Assembly: GCA_014584465.1 (NCBI GenBank)
Contig: JACTMU010000097.1
Span: 22,683 to 86,682 of the forward strand
Reading direction: 5' to 3'
DNA from: Pseudomonadota bacterium
GTDB taxonomy: Bacteria; Bdellovibrionota; Bdellovibrionia; Bdellovibrionales; JACTMU01
DNA: 64,000 nucleotides
Shown in pieces: positions 3,475-19,107 of this stretch. The translations under genes were made by a program, and so were the position numbers. Positions within the stretch are counted from its first letter, which is position 1. Each line of letters starts with the position of its first letter. The notes beneath the pieces are model-generated. The model was not told where the DNA came from. It was given only the letters and a program-made list of their open reading frames with translations, and ran no database searches.

Positions 3475-4737
3475 CTATAGATGTTTGGATCGCAGACGCC
3501 CCAACTGAATTGAAACTGCGATCCGAGTAAATAGGGTGAACAGGAGGGCTCCAAAGGCCCAAATCCCCAAAGAGATCGCCGTTTCACCACGTGATGGAGT
3601 GTATTCAATCAGAAGTCCCGTTGGACTTGGAATAAAACCAGGAATAATAAGTCCGACCCCCTTCTCAATCCAAATTCCCACAATGATCAACATCGACGCA
3701 AACGCCATCCAACGTCGCCTTCGAGCAAGTGGAGAAAACAGAACGGCCAGTGAGATCAGAGAAAATGCCACACTCGTCCAAATGATCGGGGTCAATCGAT
3801 GGGCACCGTGAAGACCAAAGAAGAGATATTGGGCCGAACGATTGTGCAGAGTATCCGTATAAAACTCATTGAAAAACTCACACCCCAAAAGAAAAAAATT
3901 GATAGGCAAAAACAGGGTCATCAGAGTCCTCATAAGTTCAAAGACTCGTCTTGCAATCTGAAAATTCATAACTCGTTCAACCACCAAGAAGATGAGAAAG
4001 AGGATGGCTGGCCCTGAAGCAAAGGCACTGATCAAAAACCTTGGTGCCAAGATGGCTGAGTTCCAAAAGGGTCTCCCACCAAGTCCGCTGTACAAGAATG
4101 CCGTCACTGTGTGAATGCTGACCGCCCATCCGATCGAGAGAAAGACAAAGGGCAAGTAATGAAGTGGCGTGGGTTGCTCTCCCATATAGCGCTTGTAAAG
4201 AAGATAACCTGGGACATAGAGATTCAATAACAGATACCCCATCAGCACCACCACGTCCCACGCTAAAATAGATCTGGGAAAGTTCAAACGACCAAAAAAG
4301 GGGAGTATGTGCAAAAAACGATCAGGTCTTCCGAGATCCACCATGATGAACAAAAGGCACATGACAATGGCGACAAAAGCCAACAATTCGCCAAGAATCA
4401 CAACCTCTTTCACGTAGGATCGTTTAAAGAGATAAGCGGGAACCACAAGAAGAACGGCCGAAGCTGCCACTCCTACCAAAAAAGTAAAATTGGCGATGTA
4501 GACACCCCAACTCACGCTGTCGCTCATGTTGGTATGAATCAACCCATCTCGAAGCTGAAGAAAGTAGTAATAACCTCCCACCGAGCAAAGTGCCGTAAGA
4601 AGAATGATCCACGAAAAATAGATCTTATCGCCACTTAAAAAGTGGGCAAAGATCCTTACCCAATAGCTCAAATAGCTCTTCACACCCATTGTCTCAAACC
4701 TCGCTTCTTCGTGCCAGGCACTACTTCTGCTGCTCAA
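3475..4737 (-). CDS. NrfD/PsrC-family polytopic membrane protein (quinol-interacting subunit)
   Basis: Multiple TM segments; SWGVYIANFTFLVGVAASAVLLVVPAY is typical of NrfD/PsrC; next to FeS protein gene. Confidence 0.88.
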   Translation of the reverse strand: MSSRSSAWHEEARFETMGVKSYLSYWVRIFAHFLSGDKIYFSWIILLTALCSVGGYYYFLQLRDGLIHTNMSDSVSWGVYIANFTFLVGVAASAVLLVVPAYLFKRSYVKEVVILGELLAFVAIVMCLLFIMVDLGRPDRFLHILPFFGRLNFPRSILAWDVVVLMGYLLLNLYVPGYLLYKRYMGEQPTPLHYLPFVFLSIGWAVSIHTVTAFLYSGLGGRPFWNSAILAPRFLISAFASGPAILFLIFLVVERVMNFQIARRVFELMRTLMTLFLPINFFLLGCEFFNEFYTDTLHNRSAQYLFFGLHGAHRLTPIIWTSVAFSLISLAVLFSPLARRRRWMAFASMLIIVGIWIEKGVGLIIPGFIPSPTGLLIEYTPSRGETAISLGIWAFGALLFTLFTRIAVSIQLGRLRSKHL

Positions 4738-5645
4738 TCCAGGTAGTAGTAAAAACTCGGAATTGTGTTCAGCTCCTCCTTCAACACAAATACCAACTTA
4801 TATTTAAGAATCTGAAAGACTTCGCTTGATGGATCCAAGATATTTCCAAAGTTGCGCGCTCCCGTTGGGCAAGCCTCCATACAGGCAGGATTCTTTCCAA
4901 CTCGTGTCCTGTGCATACAGAAATGACATTTTTCCACGACTCCTGCCGGCCGCAGCCGATTGCTCAAGTATCCTTGATTGGGATTGACCTCCTCAGGTGA
5001 AATCTTGGGTGCTGAAAAGTTGAACCTCCTTGCCTCATAGGGGCAAGCTGCCATACAGTAGCGACATCCAATGCACCAATCATAGTCGATTGCGACAATT
5101 CCATCTTGCTCTTTCCACGTTGCCTCGATCGGACAGACTTTAACACAAGGTGGATTGTCACATTGAAAGCACTGCATTGGAAGATAGAACTTCCCATCTT
5201 TGGGAACCTCCCCTTCGTAGCGACTTGATCCGCTCTCCAAATTCATGCTTCCAATGGGCATCTCGAGAACTCGAATGTACTCAATCGGAGTGCTGCGATC
5301 TTGATTGTTCTCACGGACACAAGCCTCAACACACCTTCGATTGCCGTTGCACAAACTCAAACTCAGCGTGTAGACAAATTTAACTCCGGGGATCGGTTGT
5401 GGATCTTGGATCGTAGGTCTTACGCCAATGTCACGCTCGGCCTTCTCCTCAATTCGGCGAAAAATCCGCTCTTTGTCGCTGGCACTCAACTCCTTGTAGT
5501 GTCTCTTGAAAAAATCCTCAAAAAAGTGATTCTCCTGGGAGCAACCTGACACGAGCGAGGCCGCCACTCCGGCCGCCGATTTTTTTAAGAAATTTCGACG
5601 ACTCTCCCGTTTCTCTAAAAGTTTCGTTGGACGATCTCTTTTCAA
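4734..5645 (-). CDS. 4Fe-4S ferredoxin-type electron transfer subunit with Tat signal and lipobox-like site
   Basis: SRRNFLKK Tat motif, LVSGC; CVEACVREN, CFQCDNPPCVKVCP, CIGCRYCMAACP, CHFCMHRTRVGKNPACMEACP. Confidence 0.92.
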   Translation of the reverse strand: MKRDRPTKLLEKRESRRNFLKKSAAGVAASLVSGCSQENHFFEDFFKRHYKELSASDKERIFRRIEEKAERDIGVRPTIQDPQPIPGVKFVYTLSLSLCNGNRRCVEACVRENNQDRSTPIEYIRVLEMPIGSMNLESGSSRYEGEVPKDGKFYLPMQCFQCDNPPCVKVCPIEATWKEQDGIVAIDYDWCIGCRYCMAACPYEARRFNFSAPKISPEEVNPNQGYLSNRLRPAGVVEKCHFCMHRTRVGKNPACMEACPTGARNFGNILDPSSEVFQILKYKLVFVLKEELNTIPSFYYYLD

Positions 5646-5696
5646 CTACGGCCCCTCAACTAAAAAAGGAATCACTCAAGAGAATTTGGTTTATAG

Positions 5697-5726
5697 CCCA
5701 TTTCGAACTTCAGATCCAGGTTCAAG
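5697..5726 (-). repeat. Dispersed short repeat, copy a
   Basis: Reverse complement TTGAACCTGGATCTGAAGTTCGAAATGGG. Confidence 0.45.
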
Positions 5727-5771
5727 TATAAGTTTGTATATGAGCTTGGACCAAACGGCAAGAATTTCCCT

Positions 5772-7040
5772 CTAAGGCGTCGCGCTTTTGTGATTGGGGC
5801 GCAACTCCTTTGCCCCTCCACCTTCGGCAGTTGCCTTCTTAGAAGATTTTGGAGAAACGAGATGGGCCTCCTGATTGATCCAATGAATTTCAATGGTCTT
5901 TCCACCATGCATGAGGTGACAAGTGGTGCAGGTCGTTCGTTTCGGCATATGGCGCTCAAAATTGACATGACAATTGGTGCAGCCACCCTGATAGGTTGCG
6001 GCGACATCTTTATGTTTAAACCTAAAACCTTTCGGATGGGGGATCTCCACATGGCATGAACCACAATAAGGAATGCCTCGCATCTCTGCACTTGCGGTCT
6101 CGTTGTAATGACAAGTCGTGCACGCAAAGGCCTTTGGATCTGATTTATTTGCCACATAGGCGTTGCCGTGATTGGTCGGCAGCGCCCAAGCCGGGCTGTG
6201 GGGATAGGGGTGACACTCCTGACAGCTTTTCACTCCCTCGGAGGACTTTCCTTCGCCTTTGTGGCAGCCTACACATCCGTTGCGGTTTTGCAGATAGCTG
6301 TGTGCATGCAGCTCCTTTTTGCTCCACTCGTTCACGTGCGGGTAGTTGTTGTGACATTTTACACAAAGTGGAACACTCTTCTCTTCCTCTCCAAAGCCTG
6401 CGCCATCTTCTTTTTCTCGAACATCATGGCAATGCAAACAAAATGGGTTTTCAGGGTTGCTCTTCTTATTTTCCAAGAAAGCGCCCCCGTGTTGAGGGCC
6501 AAGAGACCAACCTTGGGGATGAGGATAGGAGTGACACTCTTGACAACTCTTGACTGCTTTGGAGCCCTTTCCATCCGACTTGTGACAACTCAGACACTGA
6601 TTGGAATCCCTCAGAAAGGCAGCACCGTGGTTCAATCGATTGGACCACTCCTTTTCATGAGGATAGGTGTGGCATTGAGTGCAAGAGGGGCTCTTTCCTT
6701 TTGGTGATTCGTGGCAATTCTTGCACTTCTGAGGATCGGAAGTGTATTGAGCTCCATGCTGAATCATCGAATCCACATGGGGATAGGCCTGGTGACATGA
6801 GGTGCAAACAGGAGCCTGACTCGTTCCATTATGGCACTGGGTGCAACTTTGACGATCCTGCAGATAGTGCTCCCCATGAAGAAGCGTCGTTCGAAACTCC
6901 TCGCTGTGAGGGTATCCTTGAGTCTGGGTCTTTTTCTCGCCACCTCTCTCCTGATCACCCTCTCTCTGGGGATTGGTCTTTACACAAGACACCCCAACAA
7001 AAATCATCAGAATGAGAGCCGACCAGGTAGACTTTCTCAC
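5772..7040 (-). CDS. Multiheme c-type cytochrome, 14 CXXCH motifs
   Basis: Direct count of 14 CXXCH; N-terminal export signal; GTG start; repeated CxxCH...CxxCHxYPHxxxWxxxxxHG modules. Confidence 0.93.
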   Translation of the reverse strand: MRKSTWSALILMIFVGVSCVKTNPQREGDQERGGEKKTQTQGYPHSEEFRTTLLHGEHYLQDRQSCTQCHNGTSQAPVCTSCHQAYPHVDSMIQHGAQYTSDPQKCKNCHESPKGKSPSCTQCHTYPHEKEWSNRLNHGAAFLRDSNQCLSCHKSDGKGSKAVKSCQECHSYPHPQGWSLGPQHGGAFLENKKSNPENPFCLHCHDVREKEDGAGFGEEEKSVPLCVKCHNNYPHVNEWSKKELHAHSYLQNRNGCVGCHKGEGKSSEGVKSCQECHPYPHSPAWALPTNHGNAYVANKSDPKAFACTTCHYNETASAEMRGIPYCGSCHVEIPHPKGFRFKHKDVAATYQGGCTNCHVNFERHMPKRTTCTTCHLMHGGKTIEIHWINQEAHLVSPKSSKKATAEGGGAKELRPNHKSATP

Positions 7041-7126
7041 AACACCACCCCTTTGATCACAATAATATCTTGCTTTCCCCGTCAGATACAGTCTCTTGCG
7101 AAAACTGGGCTCCGGTCTTCACAGGT

Positions 7127-7144
7127 GCTTGACTTTGGTCAAGC
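7127..7144. promoter_or_regulatory. Perfect palindrome GCTTGAC-TTTG-GTCAAGC in divergent promoter region; candidate FNR/CRP-superfamily operator
   Basis: 7-bp arms, 4-nt spacer; contains TTGAC-N4-GTCAA resembling FNR/DNR boxes; overlaps a possible -35 (TTGACT 7129-7134) with GATAAC 18 nt downstream. Confidence 0.4.
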
Positions 7145-7194
7145 TTCCCATCGATAACAAAAGGACCATCCAACCACGAAAAAGAGTTACGCCC

Positions 7195-8256
7195 ATGAGC
7201 CTTGTGCGAATCGGTTTCGCCATCATCTCCTTCATCTTCCTAGCTGATGTCAATGCTCAAAGCACAAACTGCACAACCTCAAAGTGCCATCAATCGGTGA
7301 CCCAAAATCGATTCCTCCATCGACCACTAAAAACAAAGGATTGTCTCATCTGTCACCAAATCGATTCGACCAATGAGTCCCATCGAGGGCGTAAGGGGGC
7401 CCATCCGTCTGTTCGACCCTTTACAATGGAAAAGATCACTGAACTCTGTCTGAGTTGCCATGAAGGCCTCAAGAAGGCATTTGCACAGAAGAGCTCTTGG
7501 ACGATTCATTCGGCCATCGAAGAGCGTTCTTGCATTGCGTGCCACAGCCCTCACGGCTCAGAACATCGTTATCTTGTCCGAAAAGATTCGATCAAGAACC
7601 TTTGCCTCTCTTGTCATGACATCCTCAAGGGTGAAAGGAGTTCACTGCACTCACCTGTCTCTGAGGAGCGGGGTTGTTTGAATTGCCATACCGTCCACTA
7701 TTCTCAACACAAAAACCTCCTCAAAGAGCAAGAGAAGGATCTCTGCTTGACTTGCCACGCTCAGCCCATCAAAGGGGTCTCCCCTATCGGTCTTGCTTTA
7801 AAGAAGAGCTACCTCCACGGGCCGATCCTCAAAGGACGCTGCACTTCATGCCACGTTCCGCACAAGAGCACCTTCGCTCACCTTCTCAAAGAGAATTACA
7901 GCATGAACAACTACTTAAATGGCGAACATCCCATCTCTGAAGTGGCTCACTGTTTTACCTGCCACGATCGCACCTTGATCGACAGGGAGAGAGTGACCAC
8001 TCAGACTCAATTTCGAAATGGATCGAAGAACCTTCACTATTTGCACTTTCAAGGCGCCCAACGCGGCTGTCACCTCTGCCACGACTCTCATGCAAGCAAC
8101 AATCACAGCTTGATTCGACCCTCCTTTGAGTACTTGACCAAAATGGTACCAATCTTGTTTGAACGGAGCCCCACTGGGGGCAAGTGCGCAACCATGTGTC
8201 ATAAGACTCTGACCTATGATCGAGAACAGGAGATGATCAATGTTCTCGATCGCTGA
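7195..8256 (+). CDS. Multiheme c-type cytochrome (DmsE/doubled-CXXCH-like), 9 CXXCH plus CX4CH and CX3CH
   Basis: CLICH, CLSCH, CIACH, CLSCH, CLNCH, CLTCH, CTSCH, CFTCH, CHLCH plus CTTSKCH and CATMCH; signal peptide after internal ATG at 7195. Confidence 0.9.
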   Translation: MSLVRIGFAIISFIFLADVNAQSTNCTTSKCHQSVTQNRFLHRPLKTKDCLICHQIDSTNESHRGRKGAHPSVRPFTMEKITELCLSCHEGLKKAFAQKSSWTIHSAIEERSCIACHSPHGSEHRYLVRKDSIKNLCLSCHDILKGERSSLHSPVSEERGCLNCHTVHYSQHKNLLKEQEKDLCLTCHAQPIKGVSPIGLALKKSYLHGPILKGRCTSCHVPHKSTFAHLLKENYSMNNYLNGEHPISEVAHCFTCHDRTLIDRERVTTQTQFRNGSKNLHYLHFQGAQRGCHLCHDSHASNNHSLIRPSFEYLTKMVPILFERSPTGGKCATMCHKTLTYDREQEMINVLDR

Positions 8257-9580
8257 AATGGCTCAAAAAGTTCGATCTAGCTTGAAAGTCCAACCATCAA
8301 ATCATTTGAAACGCTGGGGATTGGAACATGGGCATTTGATGCATTGGCGCAAATGGTTACTTGTTTTGAGCCTTGCTCCGGCAACAGCTAATGGAGATCT
8401 GATTCGCATTGAATCAGAGAGCCTTTGGGGTCTTCGCAGAAACGCACAGGACCATCTGGCCTCTCCTCTGGAGGAGTTCTTTCAACTTCACTATCTTTCA
8501 GATGAAAAGGGCTTGAGTTTTGATTCGAGTTTTTCGCTCTATGATGACCCCGTCACACTTGGCAACCAAGGAGAGTTTCATCTCTATACGATGAATTTAA
8601 GGTATGGCCTACTCGAAAATCGCCTTCAGTTGAGCTTAGGACGAAGCTTCAATAGCGAAACCTCGGTCAAGCCTTTGTCCATGGATCTTCTCAACGTCGA
8701 ATATGCCCTTCTCAAGCGTGAGCTCTATCTTGGAACCTTCTTGGGGTACGAAGGTGCCCAAGGTGAAACCAGCTCTTCGGATCTGCGTTCTCAGGTTGCG
8801 GGGCTTTATCTCAACTATCGCCCACACTTCTTGGATCTTCCAAGAGTTCGAATCAAGTTTGAACGTCGTCAGACCGACACGACGCTCGTTCGTTCAAACA
8901 ATCTCTTTGCCTACGCTTTTTTGCAGCCTCTCCCAGGCCATCTGAGTCCTGAAGTCTATGTGGAGGGTGAAACCTATCTTGAAAACCTCGTGGGGAGAAA
9001 GATTGAGGTTGGAGCCGACCTCTATCCCAACACGCAATCTTCAATTGGGGTGAGCTATCTCCGATATGAAGATCAAGACGCTCTCTCTCAGGAGAGAACT
9101 CTGTTTTCTATTTTTTCTCAAGGTGTTTTGCAGGAGTATTCGGTGAAGATGGGTTATCAAATCCGACGATTCTTTGTGCCCTCTTTGAAGATCTCCTATG
9201 ATGAATATCCCTTTCAGGGAACAAAGACAACTTCTGGTGGTAAAATGGAGGTTGGTTTTGTAGGGCAATCTGCACGGAATCGATATGAGGGGAAACTGGT
9301 CTATCTAAAGAGTTACGGTGGATGGTTGACTGGACTTGAGATATCTGCTTCGCAGACCCTGATTCATGATTTTGAGCTATTGGAGAAGATCGAGGTTGGC
9401 TACTATGAAAAGATCACTCAATCCAAGAGGTGGGTCTTCTCTTCGCAAATGGGCATGAATGCATGGGTTTGGAACCACTTTCGCCTCTACTTCGGTGGCG
9501 AGTTGAACAACAACAACCTCTTTGCTGCGGATGCAAGGGTGCTTGCCAAACTCACCTATTTGTTTTGGAAGGAGTTGTAA
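8240..9580 (+). CDS. Predicted outer-membrane beta-barrel protein in cytochrome operon
   Basis: Signal-like hydrophobic segment LLVLSLAPATA then alternating amphipathic segments (MNLRYGLLENRLQLSLGRSF, VGADLYPNTQSSIGVSYLRY, EYSVKMGYQIRRF, HFRLYFGGELNN); no heme motif. Confidence 0.7.
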   Translation: MFSIAEMAQKVRSSLKVQPSNHLKRWGLEHGHLMHWRKWLLVLSLAPATANGDLIRIESESLWGLRRNAQDHLASPLEEFFQLHYLSDEKGLSFDSSFSLYDDPVTLGNQGEFHLYTMNLRYGLLENRLQLSLGRSFNSETSVKPLSMDLLNVEYALLKRELYLGTFLGYEGAQGETSSSDLRSQVAGLYLNYRPHFLDLPRVRIKFERRQTDTTLVRSNNLFAYAFLQPLPGHLSPEVYVEGETYLENLVGRKIEVGADLYPNTQSSIGVSYLRYEDQDALSQERTLFSIFSQGVLQEYSVKMGYQIRRFFVPSLKISYDEYPFQGTKTTSGGKMEVGFVGQSARNRYEGKLVYLKSYGGWLTGLEISASQTLIHDFELLEKIEVGYYEKITQSKRWVFSSQMGMNAWVWNHFRLYFGGELNNNNLFAADARVLAKLTYLFWKEL

Positions 9581-10219
9581 ATGGACCGCTCCACGATGTT
9601 TCGTCGAATTCATAATTGGCAGGTGATACTCACAGTCTTGGTGATCGTCATGGTGCCTTGGTCCCGTGGGACCTCGAATTCTCAGATTGAACCCATCTAT
9701 CGGCGCTTTGACCTCAAATTTCACAAGAGACACTCTTTTGTATCACAGACGCTGACCTGCACCCATTGCCACAATGTCGAAGAGAAGAGCAAAGGGGGAG
9801 GTGAACTTACTGCAACCGACGCCCTCAAGACGGCAACCTTCAATCGGCCGCTGGGTCAAATTTGTCATGAGTGTCATAAAGAAAAACGCCGTGGATTTGA
9901 GAGCGCCCCAACAGGTTGCTACCAGTGTCATCAGAGTTTTGAGGATTTGGGTCGCATTCAACCTCAAAGCCATGCTATTGTGGGATGGAAAAGCGACCAC
10001 GGTACACAGGCTCGAATTGCAGGAAATGAATGTTTTTTGTGTCATCGCAATTCCCAATGTGTTAAGTGCCACCTCCACCGGAGTGATCTTGAGATGAACA
10101 ATCATGGCCGCAACTTTCGTTTTTTTCACTCCATACAAGCACGTATGGAACCCCATCGGTGCGACAGTTGTCACACGCCAACCTATTGCTCGCGGTGCCA
10201 CCTAGGAGGCACTAAATGA
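9581..10219 (+). CDS. Multiheme c-type cytochrome, 7 CXXCH
   Basis: CTHCH, CHECH, CYQCH, CFLCH, CVKCH, CDSCH, CSRCH; N-terminal signal segment. Confidence 0.92.
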   Translation: MDRSTMFRRIHNWQVILTVLVIVMVPWSRGTSNSQIEPIYRRFDLKFHKRHSFVSQTLTCTHCHNVEEKSKGGGELTATDALKTATFNRPLGQICHECHKEKRRGFESAPTGCYQCHQSFEDLGRIQPQSHAIVGWKSDHGTQARIAGNECFLCHRNSQCVKCHLHRSDLEMNNHGRNFRFFHSIQARMEPHRCDSCHTPTYCSRCHLGGTK

Positions 10220-10548
10220 GTCTCGTTTCGAATTGGGTAGGGAGGCCTTGGCTCCCCTATTTTCTGATGGTGACAACCCTTGCCGTTCTCTCTTGCTCCC
10301 AAGATCGTCAATATGAAAATTATGGAGACATTCGAACTTCTCCCGGTGGAATCTCGTTGATTGATCCTGAGGAGCACGGCGGTGGATATGGACGAACTTC
10401 ATGCCTCGTCTGCCACAACTTAGAGCTCAATTTGCATCGAAGCGAAGGATCGTCATTTTCCAATGCCGAACAGCTCAATGATACGATCAGAGAAAACGGG
10501 GGTTCTACCTTTTGCCTTAAGTGCCATGGTGCCAATGGAACTGACTAG
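10216..10548 (+). CDS. Diheme c-type cytochrome, probable lipoprotein
   Basis: TTLAVLSCSQD lipobox-like; CLVCH and CLKCH; 4-nt overlap with upstream gene. Confidence 0.85.
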   Translation: MSLVSNWVGRPWLPYFLMVTTLAVLSCSQDRQYENYGDIRTSPGGISLIDPEEHGGGYGRTSCLVCHNLELNLHRSEGSSFSNAEQLNDTIRENGGSTFCLKCHGANGTD

Positions 10549-11062
10549 ACACTCATCCTTAGTTTTTTTACTTCTTCTCTTCACGTTCTGTGCCGCCTTC
10601 ACAAATGGCCAAGCCGAGGAGGGTCGCCCCAGTTTGGGAGTGCAGCAGATCGAGCTTCAGCCGCCGAGCAAATCTGTGGATTCGAACTGTCGTGATTGTC
10701 ATCTGCGAAGGTACCGAACTGAAATTCCAGAAAAGCGCACTCTGGAGCGAAAACATACAAACATATCACTCAACCACGGCGGTTTAGAGATCTCGTGCAA
10801 CCATTGTCATGACATCAACAAATACAATCTCTTGCTCCACACAGAGGAGTTCCCGGCAACGTTTCAAAACCCAAGCCCTCTTTGCCATCGATGCCACTCC
10901 ATGAAGTATCGTGATTGGCAAATAGGAATTCATGGAAAGCGAATGGGTGGATGGAGCCGACAAGCCATTGGTCAAATAGAACCGCCGAAACGACTTCAAC
11001 TCCACTGCACCGAATGTCACAACAGTCACTCCGTAAAGTTCAAAAAGATGATCGCCAGATAA
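10535..11062 (+). CDS. Tetraheme c-type cytochrome
   Basis: Start MELTRHSSLVFLLLLFTFCAAFTNGQA; CRDCH, CNHCH, CHRCH, CTECH; overlaps upstream gene. Confidence 0.88.
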   Translation: MELTRHSSLVFLLLLFTFCAAFTNGQAEEGRPSLGVQQIELQPPSKSVDSNCRDCHLRRYRTEIPEKRTLERKHTNISLNHGGLEISCNHCHDINKYNLLLHTEEFPATFQNPSPLCHRCHSMKYRDWQIGIHGKRMGGWSRQAIGQIEPPKRLQLHCTECHNSHSVKFKKMIAR

Positions 11063-14399: not shown

Positions 14400-15878
14400 C
14401 TACTTCTCGTCACTTCTGCCATCAAATGTAAATATTTTTTCTTCTCCGTCCATCGTCGTGGTCATATGCACAGGGCGCGTCCAAATCTTAAAGACATTCT
14501 CAAGAGTCGCCATCATATAGTCGGGCTGCATATCCACTCCCTCATGCATGTGCACAAGCATCATTTCTCCACGATTCTTATAGTTCCCATCGTCGATGCG
14601 AATGATCGGCTGCCCCCAGTTGGTGAGTTGAAAGAGAAGTTTCTTTTTAATGGCGGGAAAATCTCTTGTGTCAATCTCATATTGACCCGTTCGCCGGTTG
14701 AACTTATAGACGAACATCTTGTTTTCCATACAAAACTCTTCCGTCAAAAATTCATCGATGAACATCACATCGTTGTAATCACGACGAATGTCGAAGATTT
14801 TTTGACGCCCCAACCCCAACTTTCGGTCCCAATTGCGCCGCTCCCTCACATCTTGACATTGGTCCCATTCGCTTCCAAATCTTCCCTTGTTCCAACGCTC
14901 TTCAATGTTTCGAAAGAGTTCAATTCCCACCTTGTAGGGGTTGAAACTGGTCGGCGACATCGCCACGGTGCCGCTATGATGATCTGCATAATCAACCACT
15001 TCACTCGCCTTGAGAATCTTTTCCACCATCAAGGTCGTGTGCCAAAATGAGGCCCAGCCTTCATTCATAATCTTGGTCATTCCTTGTGGCGCAAAGTAGT
15101 AGGCCTCGTTGCGAATGATCGAGAGCACATCCTGCTGCCAGTTTGAAAGTGGAGCAAAGTGAAGTAGAAATTTCAGAACATCTCGCTCAGGCTTTGGCGG
15201 AAACTTTCTCTGATCCCTCTCCTGTTGGGCCATCTTCTCTCTTTGAGCTTTGACAAATTCAGGGGGGTTGATGAACGAATCCATGTACTCCCGATCCACA
15301 GGCAGGAGATAACGATCATCTCGACCTTGATTCTCCTCCTCTTTCTGTTCTCTACTTCCTTTTTCTGGACCTAGGTAGGGACTGTATCGATCGATGAGGT
15401 TTTCAAGACTCAAGCAGGTATCTACGAAGGACTCCACCGCCTCAATCCCAAAGCGATCCATGTATCTTCGAATCCGAGAAGCATGATTGGCCATTGTATC
15501 AATCATCTTTCGATCGGTGGGAGCAAACCATTGATTGTTCTTGAAAAAATCACAGTGACCAAAAACGTGCGCCATAACCAGTTTCTGATCGACAAAGGCA
15601 TTACCTTCCATCAAGTAGGCATAACAGGGATCGGTGTTGATCACCATCTCGTAGATTTTAGAGAGACCGTATTCATATCCCTTGGAAAGCGATTCGTACT
15701 CCATACCGAATCGCCAATGGGGATATCGAACAGGAAAACCTCCGTAGGCCGCAAACTGGTTCATCTGTTTGTAGGTGATGACCTCAAAGATGGTCTCAAA
15801 GAAATCAAGACCGTAATTCTTTGCATACCCTACGATCTCTCGCCGTGCCTTCTCAAGCTCCGGGGTCAACATCGCCAT
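14400..15878 (-). CDS. SpoVR family protein
   Basis: YEMVINTDPCYAYLMEGNAFVDQKLVMAHVFGHCDFFKNN, NEGWASFWH, NPYKVGIELFRNIEERW. Confidence 0.93.
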   Translation of the reverse strand: MAMLTPELEKARREIVGYAKNYGLDFFETIFEVITYKQMNQFAAYGGFPVRYPHWRFGMEYESLSKGYEYGLSKIYEMVINTDPCYAYLMEGNAFVDQKLVMAHVFGHCDFFKNNQWFAPTDRKMIDTMANHASRIRRYMDRFGIEAVESFVDTCLSLENLIDRYSPYLGPEKGSREQKEEENQGRDDRYLLPVDREYMDSFINPPEFVKAQREKMAQQERDQRKFPPKPERDVLKFLLHFAPLSNWQQDVLSIIRNEAYYFAPQGMTKIMNEGWASFWHTTLMVEKILKASEVVDYADHHSGTVAMSPTSFNPYKVGIELFRNIEERWNKGRFGSEWDQCQDVRERRNWDRKLGLGRQKIFDIRRDYNDVMFIDEFLTEEFCMENKMFVYKFNRRTGQYEIDTRDFPAIKKKLLFQLTNWGQPIIRIDDGNYKNRGEMMLVHMHEGVDMQPDYMMATLENVFKIWTRPVHMTTTMDGEEKIFTFDGRSDEK

Positions 15879-15881
15879 AAA

Positions 15882-16982
15882 CTAACGCCCCTTCCCCAAA
15901 AAGTCCTTGATCGAGTTCATGATTTTATCGCGATTTTCAATCTTACTCACGGTCAACCGCTCTTCATTTGGAAACTCTTTTGTGAGATCTCTCAAAAACT
16001 GACCACTTCCATACTTACTCTCTACCTGGCCATAACTAAACTGATTCACATTGGGTAAGAAAAAGGATCTCAAAAGGTTGATGCAGATTCGAGTGTCTTC
16101 ACCACTCCAGTTGTCCCCGTCACTAAAATGAAAGGGGTAGATGTTCCAAGAGCTGCTGGGGTAGTCTTCCCCAATGATCTGTTGACAAAGCTTGTAGGCA
16201 GAACTGATCAACGTACCACCGGATTCACTTGTTCGAAAAAAGGTATCTTCATCAACCTCTTTGGCTGCGGCATCGTGAATGATAAACCGGGTCTCAAGTC
16301 CCTTGTAGTGACGCTTAAGCCACGCATTGATCCAGAAACTCTCAAGCCGAACAATCTCCTTTTGCTCCTCACCCATCGACCCCGAGACATCCATCATGTA
16401 GATGACCACTGCATTGGCCTGGGGCTTGACCACCTCTTTAAAGGATCTGTATCGATAGTCATTGCGAATGGGAATAACCACTGGGTTTTCCGGATCGTAA
16501 GCACCTGAACTTATGTACCTCTTAAGAGCTCTCTTGTAGGTACTCTTAAAATGTTTAAGCCCCTCGGGTCCTACAGGAGCCAAACCCGAATACTTGATCT
16601 GTTTGACCTCTGTGTTTTTATTTCCCTTAGGTTCGATGCGCGGAAGCTCAAGCGTCTCCCCCAAAATGTCAGCAAGCTCTTCAAGTGTGATGTCAACTTC
16701 TAAGACATGTTCACCAGGTGTATCCCCAGCTTGGCCAGGGCCTTGACCGGGATCACCTCCCAATGGATCTCCAGGGTTTCCTTGACCTTGACCTACGCCC
16801 CCACTCTGTTTAGGACCATATTTGAAGGTCGGTATATCAATGTGAGGAATCGGAATGCGCACATAATCCTTTTCGCGCTTTCCGATCATCTCCCCGTGAG
16901 TGATGTACTTTTTAAAATCCTCTTTGATTCGACCCTTAATGATGTCTCTAAACCGACTGTGATCTTCTTGAATGCTCATCAA
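15882..16982 (-). CDS. DUF444 (YeaH/YhbH) family protein with VWA-like region
   Basis: [37 protein letters not shown]; located between spoVR and prkA. Confidence 0.92.
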
Positions 16983-17010
16983 AATGTCCTATCTTGACTA
17001 CAGGCTTTGG

Positions 17011-19107
17011 CTATTTATTCTTCACATCTCCACGAGCAAAGATGCTGGCAACATACTGAAGCACATCCGTAGCGGAGATCTCATCATAACCATAATCCTT
17101 AATCAAACGAGTTTTGACAATTTCGATCTTCTCTTGGGTATCCTTATCAGCCACCGAAGAGACCATGGAGGTGAGCTTGATGCTGTCCTTCTGATCTTCA
17201 AACAGTTTAAGTTCAAGAGCTTTATGCAACCGCTCGTTGGTCTTATAGTCAAATTTCTTATTGTCTAGAGCCAAACGTCCAATAAATCCCATGATCTCTC
17301 TTCGAAAGTCGTCCTTCCGTGATTCGGGAATTTCAATCTTTTCTTCAATGGACCTCATCAACCGCTCATCGGGTTCTTCATCTTGCCCCGTGAATGGATT
17401 ACGAACCTTCTCCCTCTGGGTGTACGCCTTGACATTGTCAATGTAATTTCCACACAAACGAGAAAGAGCACTCTCATCCGCACTGATGGCTCTCTGCACC
17501 TCGGCCTTAATGATGTCCTCATACTCATGCTTGATCACGTTGAGGAGTTCAACAAAATCAACCTTCATCTCATCACTTGAGATCAACGAATGGTGCCTGA
17601 GTCCTGACTCAAGCTCGTTCATAACCATAAAGGGATTCACGGAACCTCGATTGCTCTGTTGAGCATTGACCAAGGAGTTGGAGAGTTTGTCCTGAATGTA
17701 TCGAGGAGAGATTCCATCGAACCCCTCTCGCTCGGTCTCTTTTCGAAGCTCCTTTACGTTGTCCTCAGTGTAATTGGGAAGATACTTCCCATCATAAAGC
17801 TTAAGTTTTTGCATTCGTGTAAGATTGGCCTTCTTTGGTTTTTCCAAGCGAGTGAGAATGGCCCACATCGCAGCCATCTCAATGGTGTGAGGAGCAATGC
17901 TGACTCCACGCAATCTTCGACTGTTGAAATCTTTTTTGTAGATCTTAATTTCATCTTTGAGCTTCGTAATGTAGGGGATGTCAATCTTAACGGTACGATC
18001 ACGAAGAGCTTCCATAAACTCATTGTCCTGCAATCGACGGTACTCGGGCTCATTGGTATGTCCAATGATCACCTCATCAATGTAAGTTTGAGCAAATTTC
18101 TTGGGTTTAACCCTATGCTCCTGCGAAGCCCCAAGAAGATCGTACAAAAAGGCCACATCAAGCTTCAATACCTCGACAAACTCAATCATGCCTCGATTTG
18201 CAATATTGAATTCTCCGTCAAAGTTAAAGGCACGAGGGTCAGAGTCCGATCCATACTCGGCAATCTTTCGATAGTTGATGTCTCCTGTAAGCTCGGTGCT
18301 ATCCTGATTCTTCTCATCTTTGGGCTGAAAGGTGCCGATCCCGATGCGATCTGCCTCATTAAGAACCAGACGTTTCACTCGCACATAAGAGAGAACTTTG
18401 GAAAGATCACCATGAAAACGATCCATGAGAGACTGAAAGATGAACCGACTGGCAGGACTTAACTCGCCCACAATCTTAACTCGAAAATCTCCTCCTTGCC
18501 CGCGATTGAGTTCGGCTTCCATACGCCCTCGCATTTCGTGGGGAAGCAGCAAGAGGGGCTCCTCATGCATCGGACTTGGAAAGCGCACCACCTCTTTTCC
18601 TAAAAGATCACCAAGCTCCATCTTTTCGTCATACCACTCAAAGGTGTAAAGAGCTCCCTTCTCGGTTCGCGAGTAGTGTTCGACCCCCCGCTTTAAGAGC
18701 CTGCAAATGGTCGATTTTGCGCTACCGACGGGTCCGTGCAGGAGAATCACCCGTTTTTCTGTTCCATATCCCAATGCCGCCGATCGAAGAACATTGACCA
18801 ACTTCATCAAAGGCACATCAAGGCCAAAAACCCCATCTTCTCCTTCACTGATGTTGTCATCAAAAAATTTGTACCGAACGATTTTCTTCTTAAAATCGAT
18901 GTACTCTTCGGTCCCACTTTCAAGGATCATGTCGTACATCCTTTGAAAGGCATTTCGCGTCACCTTAGGATTGCTCTTCACGATGGAAAGATAATCCTCA
19001 AAACTGCCACTCCAGTTTAAATCTTCATATTTCTGACCCGATTGCCATTCATTGATCAACGATTTGAAGTTCATACCGCCCTGATTTGATGACATTACCC
19101 CCTCCAT
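17011..19107 (-). CDS. prkA: PrkA family serine protein kinase (YeaG-like)
   Basis: [53 protein letters not shown]; conserved neighbourhood. Confidence 0.93.

Follow-up and report, generated by a model that had tools for sequence, protein, structure and literature searches.

A divergent gene cluster of multiheme cytochromes, an outer-membrane barrel and an NrfD/iron-sulfur module in a Bdellovibrionota genome: a probable quinone-to-outside electron path

The window analyzed here is a 64,000-nucleotide stretch of contig JACTMU010000097.1 from a Bdellovibrionota genome (assembly GCA_014584465.1, 3.75 Mb, 99.7% complete), in which positions 3475-11062 carry eight genes arranged as two divergent operons. 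The original prediction described these genes as coding for a 14-heme cytochrome, a twin-arginine translocation (Tat)-type 4x[4Fe-4S] iron-sulfur (FeS) protein, an NrfD protein, a beta-barrel and four further cytochromes, with 36 CXXCH motifs overall; the open reading frame (ORF) list of the window and the motif counts agree, and all eight ORFs are confirmed at the predicted positions. The probable starts of the NrfD (4689), 9(+2)-heme (7195), barrel (8240 or 8339) and 4-heme (10535) genes lie inside the listed ORFs. The features of the cluster are as follows:

3475..4689, minus strand: NrfD/DsrP-like integral membrane quinone-site subunit (Pfam NrfD, NCBIfam DsrP, hydropathy; the ORF opens at 4737)
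4734..5645, minus strand: Tat-type 4x[4Fe-4S] periplasmic protein, probably lipid-anchored, DsrO/QrcC/ArrB-like (Fer4_11, DsrO, cysteine motifs, lipobox)
5772..7040, minus strand: 14-heme diheme-repeat lipoprotein cytochrome (motif count, Cytochrome_C7 and c3 repeats)
7129..7142, no strand assigned: palindrome TTGACTTTGGTCAA, a weak FNR/CRP-type candidate operator (pattern match between the divergent operons)
7195..8256, plus strand: 9(+2)-heme MtrA/DmsE-related periplasmic cytochrome with a Sec signal (profile match, motif conservation)
8240..9580, plus strand: outer-membrane beta-barrel of 22 predicted strands, without a plug domain (AlphaFold2, Foldseek)
9581..10219, plus strand: 7-heme periplasmic cytochrome, the constant partner of the barrel (homologues, gene order)
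10216..10548, plus strand: 2-heme lipoprotein (motif count, lipobox AVLSC, conserved position)
10535..11062, plus strand: 4-heme cytochrome (motif count; resembles the tetraheme protein preceding the FeS gene in relatives)

The five cytochromes contain 14, 9, 7, 2 and 4 CXXCH motifs, and the NrfD protein and the barrel contain none. Shuffling the residues of each cytochrome yields means of 0.004 to 0.18 motifs and a maximum of 3, and outside the cluster only one of the 110 window ORFs of at least 100 residues contains a single CXXCH, the window being otherwise almost heme-free; the richness of the cluster in heme motifs is therefore not due to chance. Conservation backs the two additional motifs that the original prediction had assigned to the 9(+2)-heme protein. 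Three homologues have a canonical CXXCH where this protein has its N-terminal CX4CH, and 11 of 11 retain the C-terminal CX3CH, which indicates that this protein probably binds 11 hemes and that the cluster would hold about 38. Lipoprotein-type leaders are present on the 14-heme, 2-heme and FeS proteins, with serine as residue +2 of the 2-heme protein, and the 4-heme protein gives weak C554/NrfB-like matches in Pfam and NCBIfam.

The profile of the 9(+2)-heme protein finds 6r2q_A as its best match in the PDB (E=1.1e-38; E=6.6e-14 for the single sequence), a chain whose sequence we take to be that of MtrA, under a different table label. By this profile the protein is an MtrA relative, and its score against the DmsE family (85 bits) lies under the cut-off of 192. 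The barrel, modeled on its own with AlphaFold2 at a mean predicted local distance difference test (pLDDT) score of 81.7, is predicted to form 22 strands with no plug. Simple barrel geometry would give a backbone diameter of approximately 40 angstrom, versus approximately 46 for 26 strands. Foldseek retrieves general outer-membrane barrels only, and the barrel sequence has no match in Pfam, NCBIfam or the PDB; its profile does not match MtrB in the PDB at E values up to 5, and by these comparisons the barrel is not detectably MtrB-related. The model of the 7-heme protein was poor (pLDDT 63.5) and was not used. Of the families proposed for searching in the original prediction, MtrA has a relative here and MtrB has none, DmsE stays under its cut-off, and none of the eight cluster proteins matches the MtrC/OmcA model TIGR03507.

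In a sample of 285 Bdellovibrionota genomes, homologues of the 7-heme protein are present in 27 and homologues of the barrel in 25, and the conduits span 10 families. The conserved core reads barrel, 7-heme, 2-heme and usually 4-heme, with nearly constant heme numbers and, at every locus read, with the 7-heme gene directly 3' of the barrel gene; one locus (L029) contains homologues of all eight genes in colinear order. In the layout of the window itself (type A), the 9(+2)-heme gene immediately precedes the barrel gene in 9 of 12 loci, and in the other layout (type B) a cytochrome of 545-774 residues, mostly with 10-12 hemes, occurs with a nearby hexaheme protein that has an N-terminal membrane helix and weak NrfH and NapC/NirT scores. 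The homologous loci come from records named Bdellovibrionales, Bdellovibrio sp., Oligoflexia and Deltaproteobacteria metagenome-assembled genomes, some of them labeled groundwater, which points to Bdellovibrionota as the phylum of the host; the host genome is the sole representative of its family in the sample. ResB/CcsA genes for cytochrome c maturation adjoin the conduit at L035. Comparative genomics supports the view that the barrel and its cytochromes form a conserved conduit.

A search with the 7-heme protein also led to a barrel in Desulfobacterota, and 30 of 247 genomes in that phylum carry homologues of it. Twelve of these loci were read, and in the majority of them the barrel gene precedes genes for an 8-13-heme protein and for a large multiheme cytochrome that often carries a lipobox. 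Alignment of the Desulfobacterota and window profiles with hhalign gives E=5e-21 for the barrel and E=5e-27 for the cytochrome (the 7-heme protein of the window against the 8-11-heme partner of the Desulfobacterota barrels), values that are inflated by heme motifs and barrel periodicity; the barrel alignment is nearly full-length and the gene order agrees. Because OmcA/MtrC-family surface cytochromes above the NCBIfam cut-off of 209 occur at two of these loci (221.8 at L145, where a homologue of the 9(+2)-heme protein lies upstream, and 466 at the more distant L150), gene neighborhood ties this barrel family to extracellular electron transfer.

On the opposite strand, the NrfD protein (Pfam NrfD, E=1.9e-42; about 9-10 hydrophobic segments by hydropathy) passes the NCBIfam DsrP cut-off with 382.9 bits versus 350, and its scores against the NrfD equivalog (28 versus 347.6 bits) and QrcD (40.6 versus 570 bits) lie far below. 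The FeS protein (Fer4_11, E=1e-20), with a twin-arginine leader, the lipobox LVSGC and cysteine motifs for four [4Fe-4S] clusters, scores 178.7 bits against DsrO (cut-off 200), 115.6 against NrfC (377.6) and 141 against QrcC (400). The absence of a nearby molybdopterin catalytic subunit, as originally noted, holds: no such subunit, including QrcB, is present in the cluster, and the molybdenum (Mo) enzymes found in the host genome, NarG and an FdhF/YdeP-type protein, are on other contigs. Neither NrfA in the cluster (Pfam, NCBIfam), dsrM or dsrK among its neighbors in the window, nor DsrA in the host genome was found. Readings of the cluster as a sulfite, nitrite or Mo-enzyme system are rejected because the genome has no DsrA and the cluster has no NrfA or Mo subunit.

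In relatives, the module is often ordered tetraheme-FeS-NrfD, as in DsrJOP, and it adjoins an octaheme HAO-like protein (Multi-haem_cyto, PF13447) in four genomes (L105, L109, L110 and L118) and a Mo enzyme in one. Copies linked to conduits and copies linked to HAO-like proteins are intermixed in the NrfD tree (L038 with L109, support 99/98). These neighbors and this tree suggest that the module also serves systems other than conduits, and it is most reasonably regarded as a general quinol:cytochrome donor that in the window is coupled to a conduit. The original prediction had named a catalytic subunit using this module as an observation that would speak against it, and in relatives such candidates do in part stand beside NrfD homologues.

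Further loci with related proteins were encountered. The octaheme HAO-like protein with tetraheme-FeS-NrfD in other Bdellovibrionota may represent a quinol-linked nitrogen reductase, with scores below the named-enzyme cut-offs. The host genome encodes, on contig C41 (L102:4502-7845) with no adjacent cytochrome, a second DsrO-like FeS protein of 398 residues paired with an NrfD-type protein of 668 residues that has a long extra region. In another genome (G117, L108:2178-11694), a 17-heme ORF, an 8-heme ORF and two tandem FeS/NrfD pairs lie on a contig apart from the conduit.

The distribution of the inner-membrane partners is informative. DsrP-like NrfD occurs in 17 of 27 conduit genomes versus 8 of 258 others (Fisher p=7e-15), and 13 of the 27, versus 1 of 258, have the NrfH-like hexaheme (p=3e-14); among the conduit genomes, NrfD is the sole one of the two in 13 and the hexaheme in 9, 4 contain both and 1 contains neither, so that the two avoid each other (p=0.001), all of these values being uncorrected for genome kinship. 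Both states are found within families 2, 16 and 17. NrfD and the conduit lie no more than approximately 10 kb apart in at least nine genomes, in colinear and divergent layouts. The pattern supports the substitution of the NrfD module and an NrfH/NapC-like (CymA-type) hexaheme for one another in conduit genomes, and this exchange constitutes the strongest support for the proposal that an NrfD-type module acts in place of CymA.

Across genomes, the diheme-repeat lipoprotein family of the 14-heme protein ranges from 5 to 30 hemes; its members lie mostly near the conduit (L037, L038, L042, L044 and L115) and resemble an extendable periplasmic wire. No match to the 14-heme protein was obtained in the plasmid collection or in a PDB sequence search. 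A Cytochrome_C7 scan of the host genome missed this very protein, so the genome may hold further multiheme proteins.

From the computed homologies, gene order, co-occurrence and barrel fold, the eight genes are most readily explained as a complete electron path from the quinone pool to the outside of the cell, a reading to which we assign a probability of about 0.68. Menaquinol would be oxidized at the DsrP-like NrfD subunit, and the electrons would pass to the Tat-exported, four-cluster DsrO-like FeS protein, then to lipid-anchored and soluble periplasmic multiheme proteins (the 14-heme repeat protein and the 4-heme protein), and from these to the 7-heme cytochrome and the 11-heme relative of MtrA. 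Either of these two cytochromes, or both, may enter the plug-less 22-strand barrel, through which electrons would reach the cell surface and an acceptor such as an Fe(III)/Mn(IV) mineral, a humic substance or another cell; the 2-heme lipoprotein, the 14-heme lipoprotein or the tip of the MtrA-like protein are candidates for the outer face. Complex formation, the order of the carriers, the outward direction and the acceptor are what we infer here. Of the route originally proposed, from menaquinone to the surface with NrfD replacing CymA, the conserved core and the natural exchange with the hexaheme thus stand, and the outward direction and the activity itself are deduced.

Several observations weigh against this path. 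Close relatives of the NrfD protein have other partners (octaheme proteins of the HAO-like type and a Mo enzyme), NrfD-type complexes can also act as quinone reductases, as QrcD does, and the co-occurrence statistics ignore the shared ancestry of the genomes. Additionally, the 22-strand barrel is narrower than the 26 strands of MtrB, and the cluster in the window lacks a gene for a large surface cytochrome.

If the electrons flowed in the opposite direction, Fe(II), a mineral or a partner cell would deliver them through the barrel to menaquinone at NrfD, feeding oxidases or nitrate reductase in a Mto/Pio-like or Qrc-like lithotrophy. QrcABCD does reduce menaquinone (PMC13059093), and the host genome contains matches to COX1-family proteins, NarG and an alternative complex III locus. 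However, the NrfD protein is DsrP-like and far under the QrcD cut-off, the hexahemes with which it is interchangeable come from a family known mainly for quinol oxidation, and the module also adjoins probable periplasmic reductases, which makes inward transfer unlikely. The two operons might alternatively be unrelated neighbors, with NrfD, the FeS protein and the 14-heme protein serving a periplasmic reductase encoded elsewhere (for example, an octaheme HAO-like nitrite/hydroxylamine reductase) and the barrel operon having a donor of its own. The interleaved tree is in keeping with this, as is a genome (G164) in which the module and an adjacent octaheme protein are on a different contig than the conduit, but the recurrent proximity of NrfD to the conduit in both layouts and its alternation with the hexaheme render such independence quite improbable. 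Although general porins and ushers have the best Foldseek E values and the barrel has no MtrB relationship, a barrel acting as a standard solute porin or as an assembly factor, with cytochromes that only store or buffer electrons in the periplasm, is very improbable given the fixed pairing of barrel and heme protein across two phyla, the MtrA homology of the neighboring 9(+2)-heme protein and the OmcA/MtrC-family cytochromes at the related Desulfobacterota loci.

The quinone-to-outside path may be extended, as a tentative proposal that we consider somewhat doubtful, to a separate lineage of trans-envelope respiration in Bdellovibrionota, in which a small barrel and a constant 7-heme cytochrome would accept either NrfD/FeS/tetraheme or an NrfH-like hexaheme as a plug-in donor, repeat proteins of 5-30 hemes would span the periplasm and, in the window, an MtrA-like wire or small lipoprotein would lead outward with no MtrC-type protein. 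If the path is real, mineral or cell-to-cell respiration extends to a phylum best known for its predators, and two unrelated quinol dehydrogenases feeding one outer-membrane conduit would constitute a natural experiment: swapping the modules would allow a direct test of what sets the inner-membrane entry point, and its energy yield. The unannotated barrel family would also provide a sequence marker for conduits invisible to MtrB-based searches.

The palindrome at 7129-7142 is given little weight as an operator because its loose pattern is near chance, with 7 matches in the window where 3.6 are expected, and the palindrome is not kept at the relatives' loci. Elsewhere in the window, three genes at 14400-19107 resemble, from their sequence only, a PrkA - YhbH - SpoVR operon.

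The literature searched, outside which most subscription journals lie, yielded no description of such a cluster in Bdellovibrionota. Among known systems, NetBCD, of NrfD type, accompanies MtrCAB as the inner-membrane donor, versus CymA (PMC8805035), and the window cluster is similar in placing an MtrA-family cytochrome beside a barrel and in using an NrfD-type rather than a CymA-type quinol dehydrogenase. It differs in its barrel of 22 rather than 26 strands with no detectable MtrB relationship, its DsrP-like NrfD and its additional 7-, 2-, 4- and 14-heme proteins, and the NCBIfam NetB model does not match the window cytochromes at E values up to 0.1. Compared with DsrMKJOP, one of the NrfD families reviewed together with Nrf, Qrc, Nhc and alternative complex III (PMC8076601), the NrfD protein exceeds the DsrP cut-off, the FeS protein resembles DsrO at a score below its cut-off and the order in relatives is that of DsrJ-O-P, whereas the window has no adjacent DsrM/DsrK, the genome has no DsrA, and multiheme cytochromes and a link to a barrel are present. 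NrfABCD differs by its NrfA and by the NrfC and NrfD equivalog cut-offs that the window proteins do not reach, and Qrc differs likewise by the QrcD/QrcC cut-offs and by its molybdopterin-like subunit.

The Geobacter Pcc/Ext conduits (ombB-omaB-omcB, extABCD, extEFG and extHIJKL), with Ext barrels of 18-21 predicted strands (PMC6148476), share the architecture of a barrel with multiheme and lipoprotein cytochromes but have other heme counts and order, and the window locus includes the inner-membrane donor. The OetABI conduits of syntrophic Desulfobacterota, with an OetI-type barrel (PMC10553843), are, judged by description, a likely published counterpart of the Desulfobacterota barrel loci: a barrel of approximately 400 residues is directly followed by a periplasmic multiheme cytochrome, whereas the window cluster has no large extracellular lipoprotein cytochrome such as OetB and adds an MtrA-like protein and the NrfD module. 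In MBNT15 SHF-111 and Melioribacter roseus, NrfD/FeS/multiheme modules with no Mo subunit have been proposed for Fe(III) reduction (PMC9386147); these likewise have a multiheme cytochrome in place of the Mo catalytic subunit, and a barrel conduit in the same locus is not described there. The combination of genes appears undescribed, as originally suggested, but the principle has close precedents in NetBCD with MtrCAB, in OetABI and in the modules of MBNT15 and Melioribacter.

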